Source of the DNA: Spirochaetales bacterium
GTDB lineage: Bacteria > Spirochaetota > Spirochaetia > JAIPGG01
Length of the DNA stretch: 43,410 nt
Direction of reading: 5' to 3'
Assembly (NCBI GenBank): GCA_021736255.1
Contig: JAIPGG010000012.1
Coordinates: 1-43,410 of the forward strand
The notes under the pieces were generated by a model. The model had not been told where the DNA came from and made no database searches. It saw only the letters and a program-made list of their open reading frames with translations. Numbering within the stretch: position 1 is the first letter of the stretch; each line of letters opens with the position of its first letter. Both the position numbers and the translations under genes were made by a program. Positions 1,459 to 14,809 of this stretch are shown piece after piece.

Positions 1459-1937
1459 CGCATATCATACGCCACCAGGGCAGGAACCGGATTTCCATGG
1501 AAATCCTCCGTGACCCCCGCCAGCCGGGCTACAACCAGGAGATTGTCGTTTTGCTCGACCGCCTCGGAAGAAGGGTTCCGGGAACGCCGGGCGGGAAAGA
1601 TATCCTGGTATTCCGGCCCCTGAAATTGTATAAGACAACTATACCGCTCAACCCTCTCCATACCGATCCAGTTTCCCCTTACCAGTTCCACCAGAACGGT
1701 ATAATTCTCCGGTCTGTCGTCGGCTATCGTTATCGAAGCCACCGCTCCATCGATCAAATAGAACCGTGCCGAATCGAGATCGGGATCAGGTTCAGTAATC
1801 TGCTGATCCAAATACTGCAAGTCCGCATCAAAGTTCAACACATTTTGCAGATCTTCCCATTCTGCAGCCGGCAGCAAGACCGAGACTGCCGCGAACAGCA
1901 GGATTCCAAATAACGGTTTTCCAATGAAACGAAGCAT
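1446..1937 (-). CDS. Small exported protein of unknown function
   Basis: This is a 163-residue protein starting at the ATG at 1937, chosen because GGAGGG lies about 6 bases upstream and the first residues then form a clean signal peptide (MLRFIGKPLFGILLFAAVSV followed by LLPAAE). The mature part is acidic, about 135 residues, with no cysteine pattern or motif I recognise. The open frame extends further upstream, but that extension overlaps the divergent SDR gene and looks non-coding. The gene is divergent from the SDR at 2034 and converges on the regulator at 230. Probably periplasmic or surface-exposed; function unknown. Confidence 0.7.
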   Translation of the reverse strand: MLRFIGKPLFGILLFAAVSVLLPAAEWEDLQNVLNFDADLQYLDQQITEPDPDLDSARFYLIDGAVASITIADDRPENYTVLVELVRGNWIGMERVERYSCLIQFQGPEYQDIFPARRSRNPSSEAVEQNDNLLVVARLAGVTEDFHGNPVPALVAYDMRRLP

Positions 1938-2033
1938 GATACCCTCCGACGGCCAGTTTAGCGGCCTTCTTTCATTCTTTTCTCTGGATGAAAACTCGTC
2001 AAGAGCAGATGTGTTTTTTCCGAAGATAGTACA

Positions 2034-2771
2034 GTGGAAGAACAGGGAACAAGAAGAAGAGCCCTGATTCTCGGCGGAAGCGGGGGAATCGGCCGAACGG
2101 TCGCACTTCGGCTGGCCCGGGAAGGGTACCGAATTACCATTCAGGGTGGAACAGACAAAAAAGCCCTCGAAAAAACCATCTCCGAGATGCAATCTCTGGG
2201 AGCAATAGCCGACGGCTTTCCGGCAAACGCCTCGGATCTTCACAATTACCTGGCAAAAATCGAGGAAAATCTCCCGGTAGATGTTCTTATCGTCGCCTAC
2301 GGTCCCTTCGTGATGGCCCCTCTGGAGGAAATGGATCTCAAACAATGGCGCCGGATGAGCGACCACAATTTCCTCCTGCCGGGTATCCTGGTAAGCACAG
2401 CTATTGCCCGGATGAAAAAACAGCGTTACGGGCGGATCATCCTCTTCGGGGGAACCGGAACCGAACAGATCCGGGGCTACCGGAAAACCGCCGCTTATTC
2501 TGCGGCAAAAACCGGCTTGGCGGTCCTGGTAAAATCCGCAGGTAGACAATTAGCCGGAAGCAATATAACCTGCAACATGGTCTGTCCCGGTGTGGTTGAA
2601 ACAAAGTATTACACTCACCGGGAACTGAAAAAGCGCCGCAACCAGATGCCCGGAGGACAACTGCTGGAAACAGAAGAAATTGCCGATGTTGTCTCCTATC
2701 TTTGTGCACCGGAGCGCCGCCAGATCAACGGGGCAATCATCAATATTGACAAGGGGTATATTCCGTTATAG
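2034..2771 (+). CDS. Short-chain dehydrogenase/reductase (FabG-like)
   Basis: This is a 245-residue SDR beginning at a GTG. The NAD(P)-binding glycine motif is GGSGGIG (residues about 14-20). The catalytic YxxxK is in AAYSAAKTG, and the C-terminal part has the usual 'N..CPG.v.T' stretch (NMVCPGVVETKYY). The family reduces or oxidises carbonyl/hydroxyl groups with NAD(P)H, and FabG itself acts on 3-oxoacyl-ACP. Two deviations are visible: the NNAG motif is replaced by VAYGPF, and the catalytic Ser position before YxxxK looks like Thr or Gly. The substrate is therefore unclear and it should not be called fabG. The Shine-Dalgarno is poor. No fatty-acid genes adjoin. Confidence 0.85.
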   Translation: MEEQGTRRRALILGGSGGIGRTVALRLAREGYRITIQGGTDKKALEKTISEMQSLGAIADGFPANASDLHNYLAKIEENLPVDVLIVAYGPFVMAPLEEMDLKQWRRMSDHNFLLPGILVSTAIARMKKQRYGRIILFGGTGTEQIRGYRKTAAYSAAKTGLAVLVKSAGRQLAGSNITCNMVCPGVVETKYYTHRELKKRRNQMPGGQLLETEEIADVVSYLCAPERRQINGAIINIDKGYIPL

Positions 2772-2788
2772 TGTTGTATGATACGTGT

Positions 2789-2817
2789 TTGACAATGCGG
2801 CTATGCACGCGTACTAT
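2789..2817 (+). promoter_or_regulatory. Sigma-70 type promoter for the STAS gene
   Basis: A perfect -35 box TTGACA (2789-2794) is separated by 17 bp from a -10 box TACTAT (2812-2817). The start point would be near 2824, giving a leader of about 35 nt before the ATG at 2859. The downstream gene has a good AGGAG ribosome-binding site. This is the best consensus promoter I found in the window. Confidence 0.75.
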
Positions 2818-2858
2818 ACAATGAAAGACACTAGACTCCTGACGGGAAAAGGAGCATT

Positions 2859-3410
2859 ATGAGCAACAACGAAATTGTACCTGGTTTTGATGATGAAAAA
2901 GATGACAGCTTAAAAATCAGGCTGCAAAAGATCGATAATGTTGAGGGCTGTCTCGTTCTGTACCTCACCGGTTATATTGATACGTATAACTCGAACTTTT
3001 TTCAGAAACGAGTTACCAAAGCGGTGGAAGCAGGCTACAGCAGGCTGATTTTTCACTGTGCGGGTCTCAATTACGTTTCGAGTACCGGAATCGGCTCCTT
3101 TACCGCCTTTCTCAAAGCGGTAAAACCCCGCGGTGGAGATTTGGTTCTTCTCGAGATCCAGCCGAAGGTATACGAGGTCTTCCAGCTTCTCGGTTTTTCT
3201 CAATTCTTCAACATCAAGGACAGCCTGGATGATGCTGTGGATTTTTTCGTAAAGGGAGGACAAACAGGCAGCACCGACGTGTTTCCGAAGATTTTCAAAT
3301 GTCCTATCTGCTCGAAAAAACTCAAAGCAACCAAACCGGGCCGTTTCCGCTGTTCCGAATGTAAAACCATTTTGGCTATAGATAACGCCGGCCAGGTGTT
3401 TCTCGGCTAA
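2859..3410 (+). CDS. STAS-domain protein with C-terminal zinc ribbon
   Basis: The 183-residue protein has a STAS (anti-sigma-factor antagonist) domain at residues about 18-130. The phosphorylatable-serine region reads YVSSTGIGSF (around residue 75), equivalent to the DSSGLG loop of SpoIIAA. The last 45 residues hold a CPIC...CSEC zinc ribbon (two CxxC pairs about 14 residues apart). STAS proteins act in partner-switching: the unphosphorylated form binds and sequesters an anti-sigma kinase. The zinc ribbon may add a protein or nucleic-acid contact. No RsbW-type kinase or PP2C phosphatase is adjacent. AGGAG lies 6 bases before the ATG, and a strong promoter lies upstream. Confidence 0.88.
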   Translation: MSNNEIVPGFDDEKDDSLKIRLQKIDNVEGCLVLYLTGYIDTYNSNFFQKRVTKAVEAGYSRLIFHCAGLNYVSSTGIGSFTAFLKAVKPRGGDLVLLEIQPKVYEVFQLLGFSQFFNIKDSLDDAVDFFVKGGQTGSTDVFPKIFKCPICSKKLKATKPGRFRCSECKTILAIDNAGQVFLG

Positions 3411-3427
3411 GAGAAAAGCAGGCTTCC

Positions 3428-4081
3428 ATGCGTTTCCGGTCGATTCGAGTCGATCTCGTACGACCGGAACCGGCAGAGGAAGCGGTATTCAGATCCCTGT
3501 TCCGCAAACAACCAGCAACCGTTCTCATAGTCACATCCTCTCCCATGCCGGTGAGTCAGGCTGAAATTCTCCTCCTCTCGAGCAGCTGCTTGCGGGAAAT
3601 TTCCCCTATAGACTCCCCAGGTTTGCCGGTACTGGTTTATGGGCCGGCCGAAGACCTGCCTGAGGCCTTTCAAGAGGGAGCCGGCGACTTTTTGCGGGAG
3701 CCCTGGTCGGAAATCGAGCTCATGATTCGAATCGAACGTATGGTCGATCAAAAACGTTCCTGCGGGCCCTACCGCCTCGAAGGAAATACAATGATCGGCC
3801 CGCCTCTTTTCGGCGGGAGCGGCGAACAGAGGGTTCAATTCACCCCCGCCGAAGCGGCCATCATGGCACTTCTCTTCGCCGGGCGGGAAGAGACCGTATC
3901 CCGGCACCTGATCGAGAACCTCGCTTTCTCCGGAAAAAACCCGAAGAGCAAACGCTTCGTTGATGTTCATATTGCCGGTATTCGCAAAAAACTCGCATCC
4001 GCTTACGAGAGGCCCCCGAATGGACCGGTAATTCTTACGATCAGGGGAAGCGGCTACCTTCTGCACTGTCCGAATACATAA
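3428..4081 (+). CDS. OmpR-type winged-helix protein with degenerate receiver
   Basis: A 217-residue protein. Residues about 115-215 form an OmpR/PhoB winged helix with the diagnostic stretches VDVHIAGIRKKL (recognition helix) and ILTIRGSGYLL (wing hairpin). Residues 1-110 have the length and hydrophobic rhythm of a receiver, but the phospho-acceptor Asp is not recognisable and the LKP switch Lys has become Arg (FLREPW). It is probably a phosphorylation-independent DNA-binding regulator. It starts 17 bp after the STAS gene, so the two are likely co-transcribed. No histidine kinase is nearby. The Shine-Dalgarno is weak. Confidence 0.8.
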   Translation: MRFRSIRVDLVRPEPAEEAVFRSLFRKQPATVLIVTSSPMPVSQAEILLLSSSCLREISPIDSPGLPVLVYGPAEDLPEAFQEGAGDFLREPWSEIELMIRIERMVDQKRSCGPYRLEGNTMIGPPLFGGSGEQRVQFTPAEAAIMALLFAGREETVSRHLIENLAFSGKNPKSKRFVDVHIAGIRKKLASAYERPPNGPVILTIRGSGYLLHCPNT

Positions 4082-4424
4082 TCTTTTCAAAAAGGGCTTG
4101 ACGAACGGGGAAAAGAATCCTCTGTGCGTAAGCTGTGGATAACTTGCTTTTTCTTTCCATAGCCATGGGTCGTTAAGACGCACCCTGTACAAAAAAATGC
4201 ACAGAAACTGGGGAAATCATTCCGTCTACTTGTAATTCCTTGCAATATAAGCATTTAACTCTTTATGCCCTACATATGTTAGTCTGATCCGGCGAAGAAA
4301 AGGAAAAAAAGCGAAGAAACCCGGAAAAGACACCTTTACAAAGAGAAAAAACCTCCTTGTGGACAAACTGTTAATGAATTGATACTTGCAGCGGGGTAGG
4401 CTCGGTGTTACGATATATGGTGAT
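4082..4424. other. Intergenic region with DnaA-box-like 9-mers
   Basis: About 340 bp without a convincing gene. It contains TGTGGATAA (4134-4142), which is a perfect DnaA box on the minus strand. Near-matches with one mismatch each are TGTGCGTAA (4123-4131) and TGTGGACAA (4358-4366), all in the same orientation. The stretch from about 4210 to 4385 is AT-rich and purine-rich. A weak promoter (TTGCAG, 17 bp, TACGAT; 4386-4414) sits before the next gene. No dnaA or dnaN gene is in the window, so an origin cannot be claimed. A DnaA-responsive promoter or titration site is possible. Confidence 0.45.
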
Positions 4425-5471
4425 GTGAAATCTTTTCCACGTATCATCCTGCGCTACCTCCTGACTGTCGCTGTTCTCGAGGGATTTCTGCTCGGATTCG
4501 GCCGAATCGCTGATACCGAGCTGGAATACTTTTTCACATACATTCTTCCCGTCTCTTTACCGGTTGTTCTGCTTATCGGGGCAGTCTTTGCTCATTTTCC
4601 CTTTGCAAGCGGACGCAGCCGGGAAGGCGCCGCCTCTCCGATCCTGGTTTTTCTGCTTACCGCAGGCGCACTGTTGCTCTCTCTCGAATACCTCGACTAC
4701 CGGCAGGCAGCCGAGCATCAAAACGCCCCTGAACCCGCCGCACAGCCGGCGGACCCTGAACCGGTGATACGCTGGACAGGACCGGAAAGCTTTGTCTATT
4801 CACTCCCCGGCGAAGGAGAATACCGCAGGCACCGTTTCAGAATCAGCGAAGAAGGGCTCGAGCAGGCAGGGACCCCCGCGCCATCCGAGCCCGAACTCTC
4901 CGGACCGGGATCTTCCAGCCAGGCCACAGCTACCGGCGGAATGAGAGTGCTCTTTCCCGAACCGGTTTTGCGCATCGGCGAGGACGCCGCCTTTCTCGGA
5001 AGCCTGGTTTTCCGGTACCAGGAGAATCCCCTGCAGGCAGAGACCCTGTTCATGTTGATCACCATTGCACTCTTTGCAGCATCGCTCCACCTTCTCAGCC
5101 GTATATCGAAATGGCCGCTTTTCAACCTCATCCTTGCCGTCCTGCTGGTCAGGTATATTCCAGCCTTCGAACGGCTGATACAGGGAACCGGTTTCCGTGA
5201 TCAGCTGCAGGATATTCTGAGTATTGATCTGGAGGGGACCCTCACCCTTCTACTTGCCGGAACAGCGGCGATACTCTTTTTGGTAATCGACATTGCCTCA
5301 GCAGGCCGGGAAGCCCGGACAGACAGATCCGGTCCGAATACTCCTGCGAGAACCAGCTACGGAAACAGGCGAGGCAGCCAAGAGCCTCGGAAACCAACCG
5401 GTCGGCGGCAGAATACGAACGGTGAATACGGCGGCAGCGAAGCCGACCTTCAGGCTTTCAGGACGAGGTAA
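4425..5471 (+). CDS. Membrane protein of unknown function
   Basis: About 348 residues if the GTG at 4425 is used. A TTG at 4386 would add 13 residues, but the 4425 start gives a clean hydrophobic N-terminus (KSFPRIILRYLLTVAVLEGF). Hydrophobic stretches suggest two or three helices near residues 8-75, another in the first 100 residues, and two or three around 205-300. A Pro/Ala/Glu-rich segment sits between the halves. The C-terminal 50 residues are polar, Arg-rich and probably cytoplasmic. I recognise no family. It ends 2 bp before the next membrane protein, so the two are co-transcribed and may form a complex. Confidence 0.75.
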   Translation: MKSFPRIILRYLLTVAVLEGFLLGFGRIADTELEYFFTYILPVSLPVVLLIGAVFAHFPFASGRSREGAASPILVFLLTAGALLLSLEYLDYRQAAEHQNAPEPAAQPADPEPVIRWTGPESFVYSLPGEGEYRRHRFRISEEGLEQAGTPAPSEPELSGPGSSSQATATGGMRVLFPEPVLRIGEDAAFLGSLVFRYQENPLQAETLFMLITIALFAASLHLLSRISKWPLFNLILAVLLVRYIPAFERLIQGTGFRDQLQDILSIDLEGTLTLLLAGTAAILFLVIDIASAGREARTDRSGPNTPARTSYGNRRGSQEPRKPTGRRQNTNGEYGGSEADLQAFRTR

Positions 5472-8589: not shown

Positions 8590-9885
8590 TTACACCGGCA
8601 GCCGCTTGATCCGCGCGCCGAGAGCCTTCAGGCGCCCGGTAAGGTCTTCGTAGCCGCGTTCGATCTGGTAGACATTGCGGATAATGCTCTTGCCCTCCGC
8701 GCCCATGGCGGCAAGAAGCATGGCCATTCCCGCCCGGACATCCGGAGAGACCAGGTCGTCGCCCTTCAGACGGGAGGGTCCCGACACCACCGCACGGTGG
8801 GGATCGCAGAGGATGATCCTGGCCCCCATGGAAATCAGCTTGTCCACGAAAAACATCCGGGATTCGAACATCTTCTCGTAGATAAGCACCGTTCCCTCCA
8901 CCTGGGTTGCCATCACCAGGATGATACTCGTGAGGTCCGGCGGAAAACCCGGCCAGGGCGCGTCGTCGATCTTCGGAATCATACCGCCGATATCGGGAAA
9001 CACCTTCAGCTCCTGTCCGGCGGGAACAAAAATCGTGCTCCCGTCGGCCTCCCAGTGTATTCCGAGTTTCCCGTATGCGATCTTGACCATCCTGAGGTCC
9101 CGGGGTGCGGCATCCTGGATTTCCAGTTCTCCCCGGGTAACAGCGGCAAGACCGAGGAAGGAGCCCACCTCCATGTAGTCGGGGCCGATGCGGAAGGAGG
9201 CGCCGTGAAGCCTTTTTACCCCCTGGATTCGCAGGATATTCGAGCCGATGCCGGAAATCTTTGCTCCCATCGAATTGAGGAGCCGGCACAGGTCCTGGAT
9301 GTGCGGTTCGGAGGCGGCATTCTGGATTACCGTCTGCCCCTCGGCAAGTACCGCCGCCATCAGAGCATTCTCGGTGGCCGTAACCGAGGTTTCGTCGAGA
9401 AAGATGTCTTCACCGACGAGCTTGTTCGCAGTGAGCTTGAACTGCCCGTCGATCTCGACCCGGGCGCCCAGGTCGGAAAGCGCAAGAAAGTGGGTGTCGA
9501 GCCTGCGTCTGCCGATCACATCGCCGCCGGGAGGGGGAAGAACAGCCTTGCCCGTCCGGGTCAGGAGAGGACCGGCAAAGAGAATCGAGGCCCGCACATT
9601 CTTTCCCTGTTCGGCGGGGACCTCGCTGCTGGTAATGTTCGTTGTGGTAATCCGGTAGGAATCGTGACCGGTCTTTTCGACCTTCACCCCCAGATCACCC
9701 ATGATGTCCAGCATCACGTGGACATCCTCGATATCGGGGATATTCGAGAGTTCAACCGGTTCATCGGTAAGCAGACAGGCAGCTATGCACGGCAGAGCCG
9801 CATTCTTGTTTCCATGGGCACGAACCTTTCCCTTCACGGGAAAGCTGCCCTCGATCTCGTATCGCAGGTCCTCGCAGTCTTCCAT
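8590..9885 (-). CDS. murA: UDP-N-acetylglucosamine 1-carboxyvinyltransferase (Asp-type)
   Basis: MurA transfers enolpyruvate from PEP to UDP-GlcNAc, the first committed step of peptidoglycan synthesis, in the cytoplasm. The 431-residue protein (ATG 9885; a GTG at 9906 would add 7 residues) has the N-terminal NKNAALP motif and the two-fold beta-alpha domain pattern throughout. The catalytic loop reads [11 protein letters not shown]: the usual Cys115 is replaced by Asp. Asp-type MurA enzymes are known from mycobacteria, chlamydiae and Borrelia and are intrinsically insensitive to fosfomycin. The gene follows the MNT/HEPN relic, and its 5' 50 or so bases are duplicated upstream. Confidence 0.93.
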
Positions 9886-9927
9886 ATAGGATGACTCTAC
9901 CCTCACCAGGCCCGGTCGTCAATCGGT
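9837..9927. repeat. 91-bp direct repeat, copy 1 (murA 5' end)
   Basis: This segment holds the first 16 or so codons of murA, its leader and the last three codons (ACC GAT TGA, read on the minus strand) of the reading frame upstream. It is identical over 91 bp to 10403-10493. Together the two copies bracket the MNT/HEPN segment 9928-10402. Confidence 0.95.
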
Positions 9928-10088
9928 GTATGATTGAAAGGCTCTCATCAAATCATCCCACGTCTGCAGATGTGCAAGAATTTCGGAGTGAATCGCTTCA
10001 AACATTTCATTTTTATACAAATGACTGAGCTCGTTTCTCCAGTCGATCATTTTAAGAGCTGTTTCACATTTTTCAGGCGCTCTTCCAT
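9919..10088 (-). pseudogene. HEPN toxin gene (HI0074-type) with internal deletion
   Basis: From an ATG at 10088, overlapping the end of the MNT gene, the minus strand reads MEERLKNVKQLLK and then a stop. That is a typical HEPN beginning. Immediately after, in another frame, an ATG overlapping this stop opens MIDWRNELSHLYKNEMF and continues to the TGA at 9919. This second piece is the C-terminal helix pair of nucleotidyltransferase-substrate-binding (HEPN) proteins and retains the Rx4H RNase motif (RNELSH). Only about 56 of the family's roughly 130-150 residues remain, so an internal deletion of roughly 75-90 codons with a frame change is inferred. The final codons and stop come from repeat copy 1. 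Confidence 0.75.
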
Positions 10089-10348
10089 ACCTCGGACTCC
10101 TGCAGAGCCGTCTGTTCGAACTCCGAATCTACTTGCTCAAAATTGATGATGTCGACTTTCCAGGGAATAAGGCTTTCTTCGATCTGTTCGAGAATACTGT
10201 GTTTTACTTCAGTGAAGGTCCTCTTATCCAACCCTTTGATACCGATATCAAAATCAGCTGCCCACCTGAAGTCGCCGGACACCCTCGAGCCGAACAGAAA
10301 AACAGTACATTCCCGATCGGCAAGCTCACGAAGCACGAGCTTTTTCAA
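10073..10348 (-). CDS. MNT-family minimal nucleotidyltransferase (antitoxin-like)
   Basis: The frame encodes a MNT protein: GSRVSGDFRWAADFDIGI contains the GSx...DxD nucleotidyltransferase motif, and the third acidic position is in VDIINFEQ. MntA-type proteins neutralise their HEPN partner by AMPylating it, so this is the antitoxin half of a type VII-like pair. The natural start is uncertain. The TTG at 10348 is one option, but family-like residues (KPDPKYEKKYYEL) continue upstream to a CTG at 10390, which has GGGAG about 8 bases before it. No ATG or GTG is available, so the 5' end may have been lost at the junction with repeat copy 2. Its partner HEPN gene is broken. Confidence 0.7.
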   Translation of the reverse strand: MKKLVLRELADRECTVFLFGSRVSGDFRWAADFDIGIKGLDKRTFTEVKHSILEQIEESLIPWKVDIINFEQVDSEFEQTALQESEVWKSA

Positions 10349-10402
10349 CAGTTCATAGTATTTCTTTTCGTATTTCGGATCCGGTTTCAGTGTAAATACT
10401 CC

Positions 10403-10493
10403 CGGGAAAGCTGCCCTCGATCTCGTATCGCAGGTCCTCGCAGTCTTCCATATAGGATGACTCTACCCTCACCAGGCCCGGTCGTCAATCGGT
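10403..10493. repeat. 91-bp direct repeat, copy 2 (murA 5' fragment)
   Basis: Identical to 9837-9927. This copy holds the stop codon of the lipoprotein gene (10485), the ancestral murA leader and a murA start fragment that runs out after EIEGSFP, where the MNT segment begins at about 10402. It shows that murA once directly followed the lipoprotein gene. Confidence 0.95.
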
Positions 10494-11750
10494 AGTCTTC
10501 TGAAGAAGAAGAAAGTACTGGCGGCCCTCGAAGGGGTTGTCGTCGAGCTTGATAGCGATTTGGCGCAGACGGCTTTGGCCGTCTTTACAGACAAGACGCA
10601 CCTGAAATGTGCTGACCGCGCCGGGGCCGAATCGCTCGGGAAAGGGGTTTTCTAAGATCCGGGGAAAGAGCACGTCGATGACATCGGATAAATCGCTGCA
10701 AATCCACTGTGTATCCGCCTCTGATTCTTCCGGTATAGGCGCAAATACCCGGACAACCGCTTCCTCGAGCGGAAGATCTTCGGCCGCTTCTTCTGCGGCA
10801 TAGCTCAAAAAACCGCGTGTTCCCTGCCGGACCAGGATTTCCCTGCAGGTATCGAGAAAATTGTTGAGACTCCGGACAATGTTGACCGTCGAGCGTTCAC
10901 TCATCCGCTCGTCCGCATAGCCGTACCACATCAGGTAGGTCTCGAACCCGACATCCTCTTCGAAAATGCGGCGGAAAACAATCAGGTCTTGAAGCCCGTC
11001 GGCGTCGATGTCGCGAATAGTGTAGTGAGCCGTGTTCGAAAGCTCCAACCCGAAGGTTGCCGGGCCTCCGGTACCCGGGTATACCAGCCAGAACAACCGG
11101 GAGCCCTTCGATGAGGAGAACTCCAGATCCACGACGACAGGATACTCCCCCTCCCCCGCAAGGCGGCGGAGAGCATACCGTTCGAGCACCTTTCCCGAAC
11201 CGGCATCTATCAGCGAAGCAGGGTGAACTCCACCATCATCCCGCCGGTACATCGGAAACAAGCGAACCGGCACCCTTTTCTCGTCTTCGCTGCCGACCCG
11301 GGAATAGTCGCTGAAGACCAAAAAACGCCGGAGCTCCTCGAACTCGGAGGGAATCAGGAGAAAGACCGCATCCTCGTCACCGTCCGCATCCAGGTCAGCC
11401 CGAAGAGACATTTCCATACCCCGTTCCAACACCGGCATCCAGCCGGGAGGAAGGGCTTTCTTCAAGGCTGCACGGAAGGGCACCACAGCCCCGTCTGCAG
11501 GGGAAACCTGTCCAATCGATGAATCGGAATCCTTCCCCTCGGGGGATGCTTGCTGCCCGTCGACCCTAGTTCCGGAGGCTGCTTCCCGGGAATCTGCGTC
11601 CTGACCTTTTGTTTCCGGAGTTTTTACTCCTCCGGTTCCCGCACAGCCGGAGAAAAAGCCGAGCAGGAGCAGGACCGCCGCTGCCGCAGCGAGGATCGGC
11701 CTCGGCCGGGGGTGTTTTTGCTTAAGTTCTTTCAAAGCAGTGCTTTGCAT
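10485..11750 (-). CDS. Lipoprotein with FG-GAP-like Asp-rich motifs
   Basis: A 421-residue protein from ATG 11750, preceded by a GGGAAGGGG stretch. A hydrophobic signal (ILAAAAAVLLLLGFFSGC) ends in a lipobox Cys, and a polar Ser/Asp/Glu linker of about 60 residues follows. The body has two calcium-loop-like motifs, DLDADGDEDAVF and DIDADGLQDLIVF, as in FG-GAP/VCBS repeats, suggesting a propeller-like or beta-rich exported domain. Function unknown. It is divergent from the aspartate kinase gene. Its stop codon lies within repeat copy 2, so it was once directly followed by murA. Confidence 0.8.
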   Translation of the reverse strand: MQSTALKELKQKHPRPRPILAAAAAVLLLLGFFSGCAGTGGVKTPETKGQDADSREAASGTRVDGQQASPEGKDSDSSIGQVSPADGAVVPFRAALKKALPPGWMPVLERGMEMSLRADLDADGDEDAVFLLIPSEFEELRRFLVFSDYSRVGSEDEKRVPVRLFPMYRRDDGGVHPASLIDAGSGKVLERYALRRLAGEGEYPVVVDLEFSSSKGSRLFWLVYPGTGGPATFGLELSNTAHYTIRDIDADGLQDLIVFRRIFEEDVGFETYLMWYGYADERMSERSTVNIVRSLNNFLDTCREILVRQGTRGFLSYAAEEAAEDLPLEEAVVRVFAPIPEESEADTQWICSDLSDVIDVLFPRILENPFPERFGPGAVSTFQVRLVCKDGQSRLRQIAIKLDDNPFEGRQYFLLLQKTTD

Positions 11751-11793
11751 TCCCCTTCCCCTTTGCTGATATAGTAACAATACGCCGGGGGTT

Positions 11794-13252: not shown

Positions 13253-14809
13253 ATGAGGTTTCGAAGCACCCGCGACCAGGCACCAGCTGCAGACGGCACC
13301 AGCTTTCGCGAGGCAATCTTCCAGGGCCTGGCCCCCGACGGCGGCCTGTATCACCCCACCTCGGTCCCCGATCTGAGCCGCGTATACCAAGAGATCGGGC
13401 CGGAAACATCCTTTGTCGAGCTTGCCGCCGAGATGACCGCCGCCCTCTTTCCCGAAGAGTTCGGACGGCAGGGCGCCCGGGAAATCTGCGAAGAGGCCTT
13501 TCCATTCGAACCGGCCGTCCGGAAGGTAAGCGAGGACATCTACATCCTCGAGCTCTTTCACGGCCCCTCCTGCGCCTTCAAAGACTTCGGCGCCTCGTTT
13601 TTGGCCACCAGCATGGAATACTTTCTCGAACATCCGGCCGCGGGCACTTCATCCGCCGCCGGCTCCGCCTCATCCTCCGAAAGCGGCCATGCCGTCATCC
13701 TGACGGCAACCTCCGGCGACACCGGCAGCGCCGTAGCCCGCGCCTTCTACGGGAAGGACAACATCGACGTCGTGATCCTCTACCCCTCCGGCCGGGTCAG
13801 CCCGCTCCAGGAACAGCAGCTGACCACCCTCGGCGGCAACATCACCGCCCTGGAGGTGAAGGGAAACTTCGACGACTGCCAGCGGATGGTCAAACAGGCC
13901 TTTACCGACCCAGAACTCCGGAAAAGGCTGCCGCTTACATCGGCCAACTCGATCAACCTCGGCCGGCTGATTCCCCAGGCGTACTACTACATCTACGGCT
14001 GGACCCGGCCGGCGGACCTTCGGGCAATCTGCGTCCCCTCCGGCAATTTCGGGAACCTCACCGCGGGCATCTACGCTTGGACCTGGGGCCTTCCGGTAAG
14101 CCGCTTCATTGCCGCAACCAACGCCAACGATGTTGTACCCGAGTACCTGATGAGCGGGGACTACTCCCCCCGACCCTCCCGGCAGACCCTCTCCAACGCC
14201 ATGGACGTGGGCGATCCCAGCAATTTCGAACGGATGCTCGCCGTATTCGGCGGCGATTCAAAGGCAATGGCCGAACTCATCCGCGGCGAGGCCGTGAGCG
14301 ACGAGGAGACCCTCCAAACCATCGCCCGGGTCCGGAAGGACTACGGCATCTTCCTGGACCCGCACACCGCAGTGGGTTTTCTGGCAGCAGAGCGATACCT
14401 GGAGAGCTGCCGGTCCGCGGCAGGCTCGAGCTCGGACTCGGCAGACGGCGGGCCAGTGGGGCGCGGCCGGGGTTCTGGGGGAGCCGGCGGCGACCGGCAG
14501 GCGGCAGGATCGAGCTCGGACTCGGCAGACGGCGGGCCAGAGGGGCGCGGCCGGGGTCCTGCGGGAGCCGGCGGCGGGCCGGAAGCGGCCGGCCCGAACC
14601 CTGTCACGGGCGGCACCGACGCCGGCCCCGTCCTGGTCCTTTCGACCGCCCACCCCGGCAAGTTCACCGAGACCGTCGAAAAGGCCACCGGAGAGAAGCC
14701 CGAACTCCCCGAGCGCCTGGCAAAGGTCCTGGACCTGCCGAAGCAGGCGATCCCGGTAGAGAACACCCTCGAGGCGCTCCGCAGCCTCTTGCTGGAGCGC
14801 TACGGATGA
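13253..14809 (+). CDS. thrC: Threonine synthase with low-complexity inserts
   Basis: ThrC converts O-phosphohomoserine to threonine using PLP in the cytoplasm. The 518-residue protein has the PLP lysine in SCAFKDFGA (Lys110), the phosphate loop TATSGDTGSA, and SGNFGNLTAG. The C-terminus HTAVGFLAAERYL...VLSTAHPGKF is typical of the yeast/E. coli-type enzyme. Two inserts interrupt the fold: a short Ser/Ala one (about 128-145) and a 70-residue Gly/Ser/Asp/Arg one (about 388-458), which sits between the penultimate helix and the LSTAHPGKF strand. GGAG lies 7 bases before ATG 13253. It is downstream of aspartate kinase in one operon. Confidence 0.93.
   Translation: MRFRSTRDQAPAADGTSFREAIFQGLAPDGGLYHPTSVPDLSRVYQEIGPETSFVELAAEMTAALFPEEFGRQGAREICEEAFPFEPAVRKVSEDIYILELFHGPSCAFKDFGASFLATSMEYFLEHPAAGTSSAAGSASSSESGHAVILTATSGDTGSAVARAFYGKDNIDVVILYPSGRVSPLQEQQLTTLGGNITALEVKGNFDDCQRMVKQAFTDPELRKRLPLTSANSINLGRLIPQAYYYIYGWTRPADLRAICVPSGNFGNLTAGIYAWTWGLPVSRFIAATNANDVVPEYLMSGDYSPRPSRQTLSNAMDVGDPSNFERMLAVFGGDSKAMAELIRGEAVSDEETLQTIARVRKDYGIFLDPHTAVGFLAAERYLESCRSAAGSSSDSADGGPVGRGRGSGGAGGDRQAAGSSSDSADGGPEGRGRGPAGAGGGPEAAGPNPVTGGTDAGPVLVLSTAHPGKFTETVEKATGEKPELPERLAKVLDLPKQAIPVENTLEALRSLLLERYG
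14417..14584 (+). repeat. 84-bp tandem duplication inside thrC
   Basis: Two near-identical 84-bp units (14417-14500 and 14501-14584) differ at only a handful of bases. Each encodes AAGSSSDSADGGP followed by GRGRG and Gly/Ala residues. The length is 28 codons, so the frame is kept. The low divergence suggests recent expansion. Confidence 0.9.

Follow-up and report, generated by a model that had tools for sequence, protein, structure and literature searches.

The lipoprotein-murA junction and its insert

The stretch of DNA analysed here (the window; 43,410 nucleotides of contig JAIPGG010000012.1 from a Spirochaetales bacterium) carries a gene for a putative lipoprotein followed on the same strand by murA. 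Between them lies an insert, X, with a gene for a minimal nucleotidyltransferase (MNT) and the remnant of a HEPN gene, enclosed by two copies of a direct repeat, R (Table 1).

Table 1. Features at the lipoprotein-murA junction (positions of the window)
Feature	Position	Strand	Basis and remarks
Upstream host gene, putative lipoprotein, intact	10485..11780	-	ORF; ends in R2; same gene adjoins murA in relatives; GC 0.573
Repeat copy R2 (lipoprotein-proximal)	10403..10493	-	Repeat comparison; terminal lipoprotein codons, leader, murA start codons
Insert X, 475 bp	9928..10402	-	GC 0.438; flank GC about 0.57-0.60
GGAG, Shine-Dalgarno-like, bases 1-4 of insert X	10399..10402	-	Read from sequence
MNT (MntA-like), frame from CTG 10390	10073..10390	-	PF18765 and PF01909 over cut-off
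HEPN (HepT, PF08780) remnant	9919..10088	-	Profile match; comparison with intact homologue L045
Repeat copy R1 (murA-proximal)	9837..9927	-	Repeat comparison; includes functional murA start
murA, intact, 438 aa from GTG	8590..9906	-	TIGR01072 506 bits (cut-off 392.7); GC 0.595

When the window was compared with itself, the two copies of R proved 100% identical over 91 bp; their starts are 566 bp apart and 475 bp lie between them. On the minus strand each copy runs from the end of the lipoprotein gene (ACC GAT TGA) through the leader to approximately the first 23 codons of murA. R2 closes the lipoprotein gene and R1 opens murA; both flanking reading frames are whole, so the insertion disrupted neither gene. 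The lipoprotein itself gave weak FG-GAP-like matches and no others. An initial annotation of this DNA had reported the identical 91-bp repeat as well as the ACC GAT TGA stop in both copies, and was right on both points.

Among direct repeats of at least 20 bp, R is the longest in the window (the runner-up measures 31 bp). It is also the longest local repeat in 1.74 Mb of the organism's own genome, if tandem repeats and duplicated gene pairs are set aside; all longer local repeats there come from a single pair of paralogous stretches. A chance origin of R is excluded. No further copy of R or of the insert was found elsewhere in the assembly (an 82%-complete genome). Promoter matches within R are weak and too near the murA start for interpretation. 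The paralogous pair (L191, G000:C38, ~1650-5100) has a spacing of 1844 bp and exact blocks of up to 126 bp, and is probably a recent gene duplication. A 31-bp exact repeat at 14426-14456 and 14510-14540 of the window lies inside a threonine-synthase-like gene, in a low-complexity stretch rich in Ser and Gly.

The MNT frame matches PF18765 with 37.5 bits and PF01909 with 28.3 bits (each above the cut-off), and its score against the MntA model NF047752 is 33.5 bits, under the cut-off of 60. The catalytic motif GSX10DXD is intact (GSRVSGDFRWAADFD). The frame contains no ATG, GTG or TTG until an internal TTG at 10348; CTG 10390 is located eight bases behind the GGAG and aligns to the ATG of homologue L046, and is the likely start as far as can be read from the sequence. 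MNT homologues are patchy in their distribution (72 of 395 genomes of the class at E<=0.001). The best of them, in genome G016, shares 56% identity, and a wider search of the phylum gave none closer. No donor of the insert was matched in the own genome, plasmids, phages or viral contigs.

The HEPN gene is broken. Its 5' part (ATG 10088, first codons MEERLK, ~20 nt) stands in the usual overlap with MNT, as in L045, where an intact HEPN of 137 aa scores 73.5 bits with PF08780. Relative to this homologue ~250 bp are gone and the frame is shifted, the junction being at about 10069/10068. What follows is the C-terminal third, which retains RNELSHLY (RX4HXY) and covers positions 79-121 of the 126 of PF08780; its 21.8 bits fall short of the cut-off (31.8), and its frame enters R1 and terminates at the TGA of the lipoprotein gene. 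The toxin is thus very likely dead, to judge from its reading frame, and from the ~250-bp deletion we infer that the insert is an inactive relic. The 475 bp had been described as an MNT gene plus a HEPN gene, a tiny toxin-antitoxin unit. The MNT frame with its motif stands, but MNT is without a usual start, and HEPN, out of frame and with ~250 bp missing, does not fit a working unit. Truncated PF08780 fragments also occur in several genomes of the phylum (e.g., G557:C334, G508:C84, G046:C36), one fragment (profile positions 79-125) being almost identical in extent to the remnant in the window.

Insert X begins at the ribosome-binding site of MNT, 12 nt ahead of its start codon, and stops at the final HEPN codons, a near-exact fit to the operon. 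Its ends have neither terminal inverted repeats nor shared junction bases (the longest common end word is 6 bp), and it carries no mobility gene; no transposase is among its genes.

Gene order in related genomes

In 26 related loci (18 genomes and 8 loci from a second collection, possibly with some organisms counted twice), a homologue of the lipoprotein gene lies directly ahead of murA in the same orientation, the gap measuring 23-204 bp and containing no MNT. These relatives belong to the same class, none being nearer, with MurA identities of 74-75% at best, and the comparison concerns gene order, not the 91 bp itself. At this class distance the order without the module, and hence the empty site, looks ancestral. 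The initial annotation had held that murA once followed the lipoprotein gene directly and had proposed to inspect the junction in relatives. The adjacency without MNT in the 26 loci agrees with this; the comparison is one at class distance, with a gap of variable length. The further claim that the extra DNA arrived together with a 91-bp duplication is supported by the R-X-R structure, the intact host genes and the 26 relatives with the empty order, and insertion with duplication can be regarded as well supported.

A probable single insertion event and its alternatives

We infer, with a probability of about 0.6, that one illegitimate event placed part of a foreign MNT/HEPN operon between the two host genes and left the 91 bp of target sequence on either side of it. 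The low GC content of the insert, the patchy distribution of MNT homologues and insert ends that have no inverted repeats or common sequence are in favour of this reading. Most likely, an intermediate of replication or repair at the junction would have switched template to MNT/HEPN DNA, or captured its end. With a template switch, synthesis would exit at one end of R, copy the MNT/HEPN DNA and resume 91 bp upstream of the exit point; alternatively, also in a single step, the fragment may have been captured at a break whose staggered ends were 91 nt long. As the duplication takes in the 3' end of the lipoprotein gene together with the beginning of the essential murA, each gene would have kept a complete copy, and the cell would have survived. 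The identity of the R copies suggests that the event, or a conversion between the copies, was recent. A recent event combined with a broken HEPN would in turn suggest that the cargo was damaged beforehand or during insertion. Later on, the insert could be lost cleanly via recombination between the R copies. A search of the 82%-complete genome for Ku found none, which speaks against classical bacterial end joining, and the same genome yielded no reverse transcriptase for an RNA route. The close match of insert boundaries to gene boundaries is unexpected under random DNA capture and counts against this explanation.

The same end structure would be produced by homologous integration, in which a circle, or transforming DNA in which X was already joined to a copy of R, underwent Campbell-type or inter-chromatid exchange with the R of the chromosome. 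In that case the 91 bp would have served as the homology and would not be a duplication made by repair; their length should suffice for RecA-dependent exchange. Furthermore, transformation of Streptococcus pneumoniae with DNA of which parts recur in the chromosome yields duplications (PMC3784515), where, as at the murA site, incoming DNA duplicates host sequence and the essential gene is preserved. However, the pneumococcal tandem duplications are mostly about 100-900 kb in size and make use of repeats (PMC3784515), whereas here 91 bp surround 475 bp of foreign-looking DNA. Moreover, an earlier molecule with X already attached to the host's own R would be required, which moves the problem back by one step, and R-X was not found elsewhere in the genome, in plasmids or in viral contigs. 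We therefore consider this route possible but doubtful.

An assembly artefact, i.e., a graph error that duplicated R or drew X from another organism or strain, deserves attention in a draft genome of 133 contigs and 81.8% completeness, the more so as the GC content of the insert is unlike that of its flanks. Yet 8 of the 12 pairs of overlapping contig ends share 139 bp, which indicates a final k of ~139, and 91 is absent among the observed overlap lengths. As the repeat is shorter than such a word, single words should span each R copy with its flanks, including both R/X junctions. The lipoprotein and murA frames are also whole on either side. Judged from the assembly, an artefact is unlikely.

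The module could also be old at this site, the second R having arisen afterwards by local duplication or gene conversion; the decayed HEPN is what one would expect of an aged insert. This sequence of events is very improbable, as the 91-bp identity includes non-coding positions and points to youth or recent conversion, the module is absent here in the class-distance relatives, and a later duplication would have had to bring the stop codon of the lipoprotein gene precisely to the other end of X.

Ordinary IS and transposon target duplications commonly measure about 2-14 bp, and the initial annotation was correct that the present one exceeds them. An IS element or transposon does not fit the 91-bp duplication and the lack of a transposase and terminal inverted repeats, and an integron cassette seems not to fit an R that is confined to this site in the assembly and made of host gene ends, with no array.

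The source cited for the insertion of restriction-modification units with long target duplication is reportedly Nobusato et al. 2000 (Gene 259:99). In the passages concerned, such units are described as inserted with a long, variable target duplication of ~100 bp and as unlinked to mobile elements (PMC3874152, PMC1643837, PMC3031569). As far as these descriptions go, the murA site shares with them an addiction-type two-gene unit, the absence of a linked mobile element, target repeats of ~100 bp and a syntenic locus, and differs in that its cargo is a broken MNT/HEPN toxin-antitoxin module and its empty site is known from distant relatives only. The host-target repeat on both sides, expected to be tens to hundreds of bp long, is here 91 bp with 100% identity, and the addiction-type insert, albeit degenerate, is without mobility gene or terminal inverted repeats. 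We would class the murA site as another instance of this rare pattern, with a toxin-antitoxin cargo; it offers no evidence of a novel type of mobile element. The initial annotation had spoken of an unusual insertion route: the long duplication stands, but a precedent already has a name, 'insertion with long target duplication', in the parts of the literature cited (PMC1643837, PMC3874152).

With regard to its genes, the insert resembles type VII HepT/MntA systems (PF08780 class I), in which MNT is followed by an overlapping HEPN, as in L045, with GSX10DXD and RX4HXY motifs (PMC7641770). The MNT has its GSX10DXD motif; unlike in type VII systems, the HEPN is not full-length, having lost roughly two thirds of its length together with the frame, and the MNT start is probably CTG. 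The relevant part of PMC2701414 describes MNT-HEPN pairs inserted at loci that are otherwise syntenic, in Thermus thermophilus HB8 (lysine operon) and Deinococcus radiodurans. As here, the pair is present in one genome and missing at the syntenic place of a relative; in contrast to the 91 bp at the murA site, that part of the paper mentions no flanking duplication.

Bracketing repeats at other toxin loci

Direct repeats of at least 30 bp on both sides were found at 6 of 58 other MNT/HEPN loci (L061 and L302 counted once), at 5 of 30 loci of the PIN toxin control and in 6 of 642 control windows drawn from core loci and the own genome. Accessory toxin genes thus often stand between such brackets, which are mostly dispersed repeats and are not peculiar to MNT/HEPN. 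The search for repeats flanking MNT/HEPN pairs that the initial annotation had suggested found brackets, but no excess over PIN. Bracketing specific to MNT/HEPN is therefore rejected, and an insertion route of their own is not supported. At L054, L063, L070, L283 and L286 the brackets resemble dispersed repeats, hairpins or paralogues.

One of the bracketed loci comes nearer to the murA site than the rest. At L061 (G236:C1:639990-643250; positions 1033-1377 and 2430-2845 of the locus), a HEPN-MNT pair has an intact amino-acid ABC permease gene on one side and, on the other, a 315-bp duplicate of that gene's 3' end (96% identity). G236 is a single-contig genome, and in the related G276 (L306) the permease gene is intact at the matching locus. 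Together with the close operon fit of insert X, this arrangement speaks for a dedicated small cassette, integron-like or with its own transposase acting in trans, in which a long duplication would be a programmed part of MNT/HEPN insertion. Such a cassette is nevertheless very unlikely, given the lack of inverted repeats, of an array and of any other R-type bracket in 1.74 Mb of the own genome; moreover, brackets are equally common at PIN toxins, and the G236/G276 case is ambiguous, with multi-copy elements nearby. These elements, of ~60 bp, occur in both G236 and G276 and suggest a cassette array nearby.

For the murA site, a single illegitimate insertion remains the preferred reading. A broader proposition, to which we give little credence, is that MNT/HEPN and other toxin-antitoxin pairs travel as cassettes of coding sequence alone, via a general insertion route that leaves long target duplications. 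If so, such cassettes would settle at the borders of essential genes without breaking them, the murA site being a recent and the G236 permease site an older case. Toxin-antitoxin modules can reach chromosomes with no mobile element in sight, and long target duplications are among the few traces that such events can leave. The murA site is a clear toxin-antitoxin example, in which the duplication would have kept the essential gene alive; it also illustrates a bias, in that at essential gene borders only border-duplicating insertions can survive. A single relic in a draft genome does not by itself establish the mechanism.

Two further repeats were noted at toxin genes. In the organism's own genome (L335/L197, G000:C44), a dispersed intergenic repeat of ~72 bp is present in three copies at ~3889, 6114 and 7044, two of which bracket a PIN toxin gene. 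At L283 (G531), a HEPN-MNT pair directly follows a uvrC-like gene, and a 36-bp hairpin-forming repeat is found at the end of this gene and again past the module (1389-1423 and 2215-2250).
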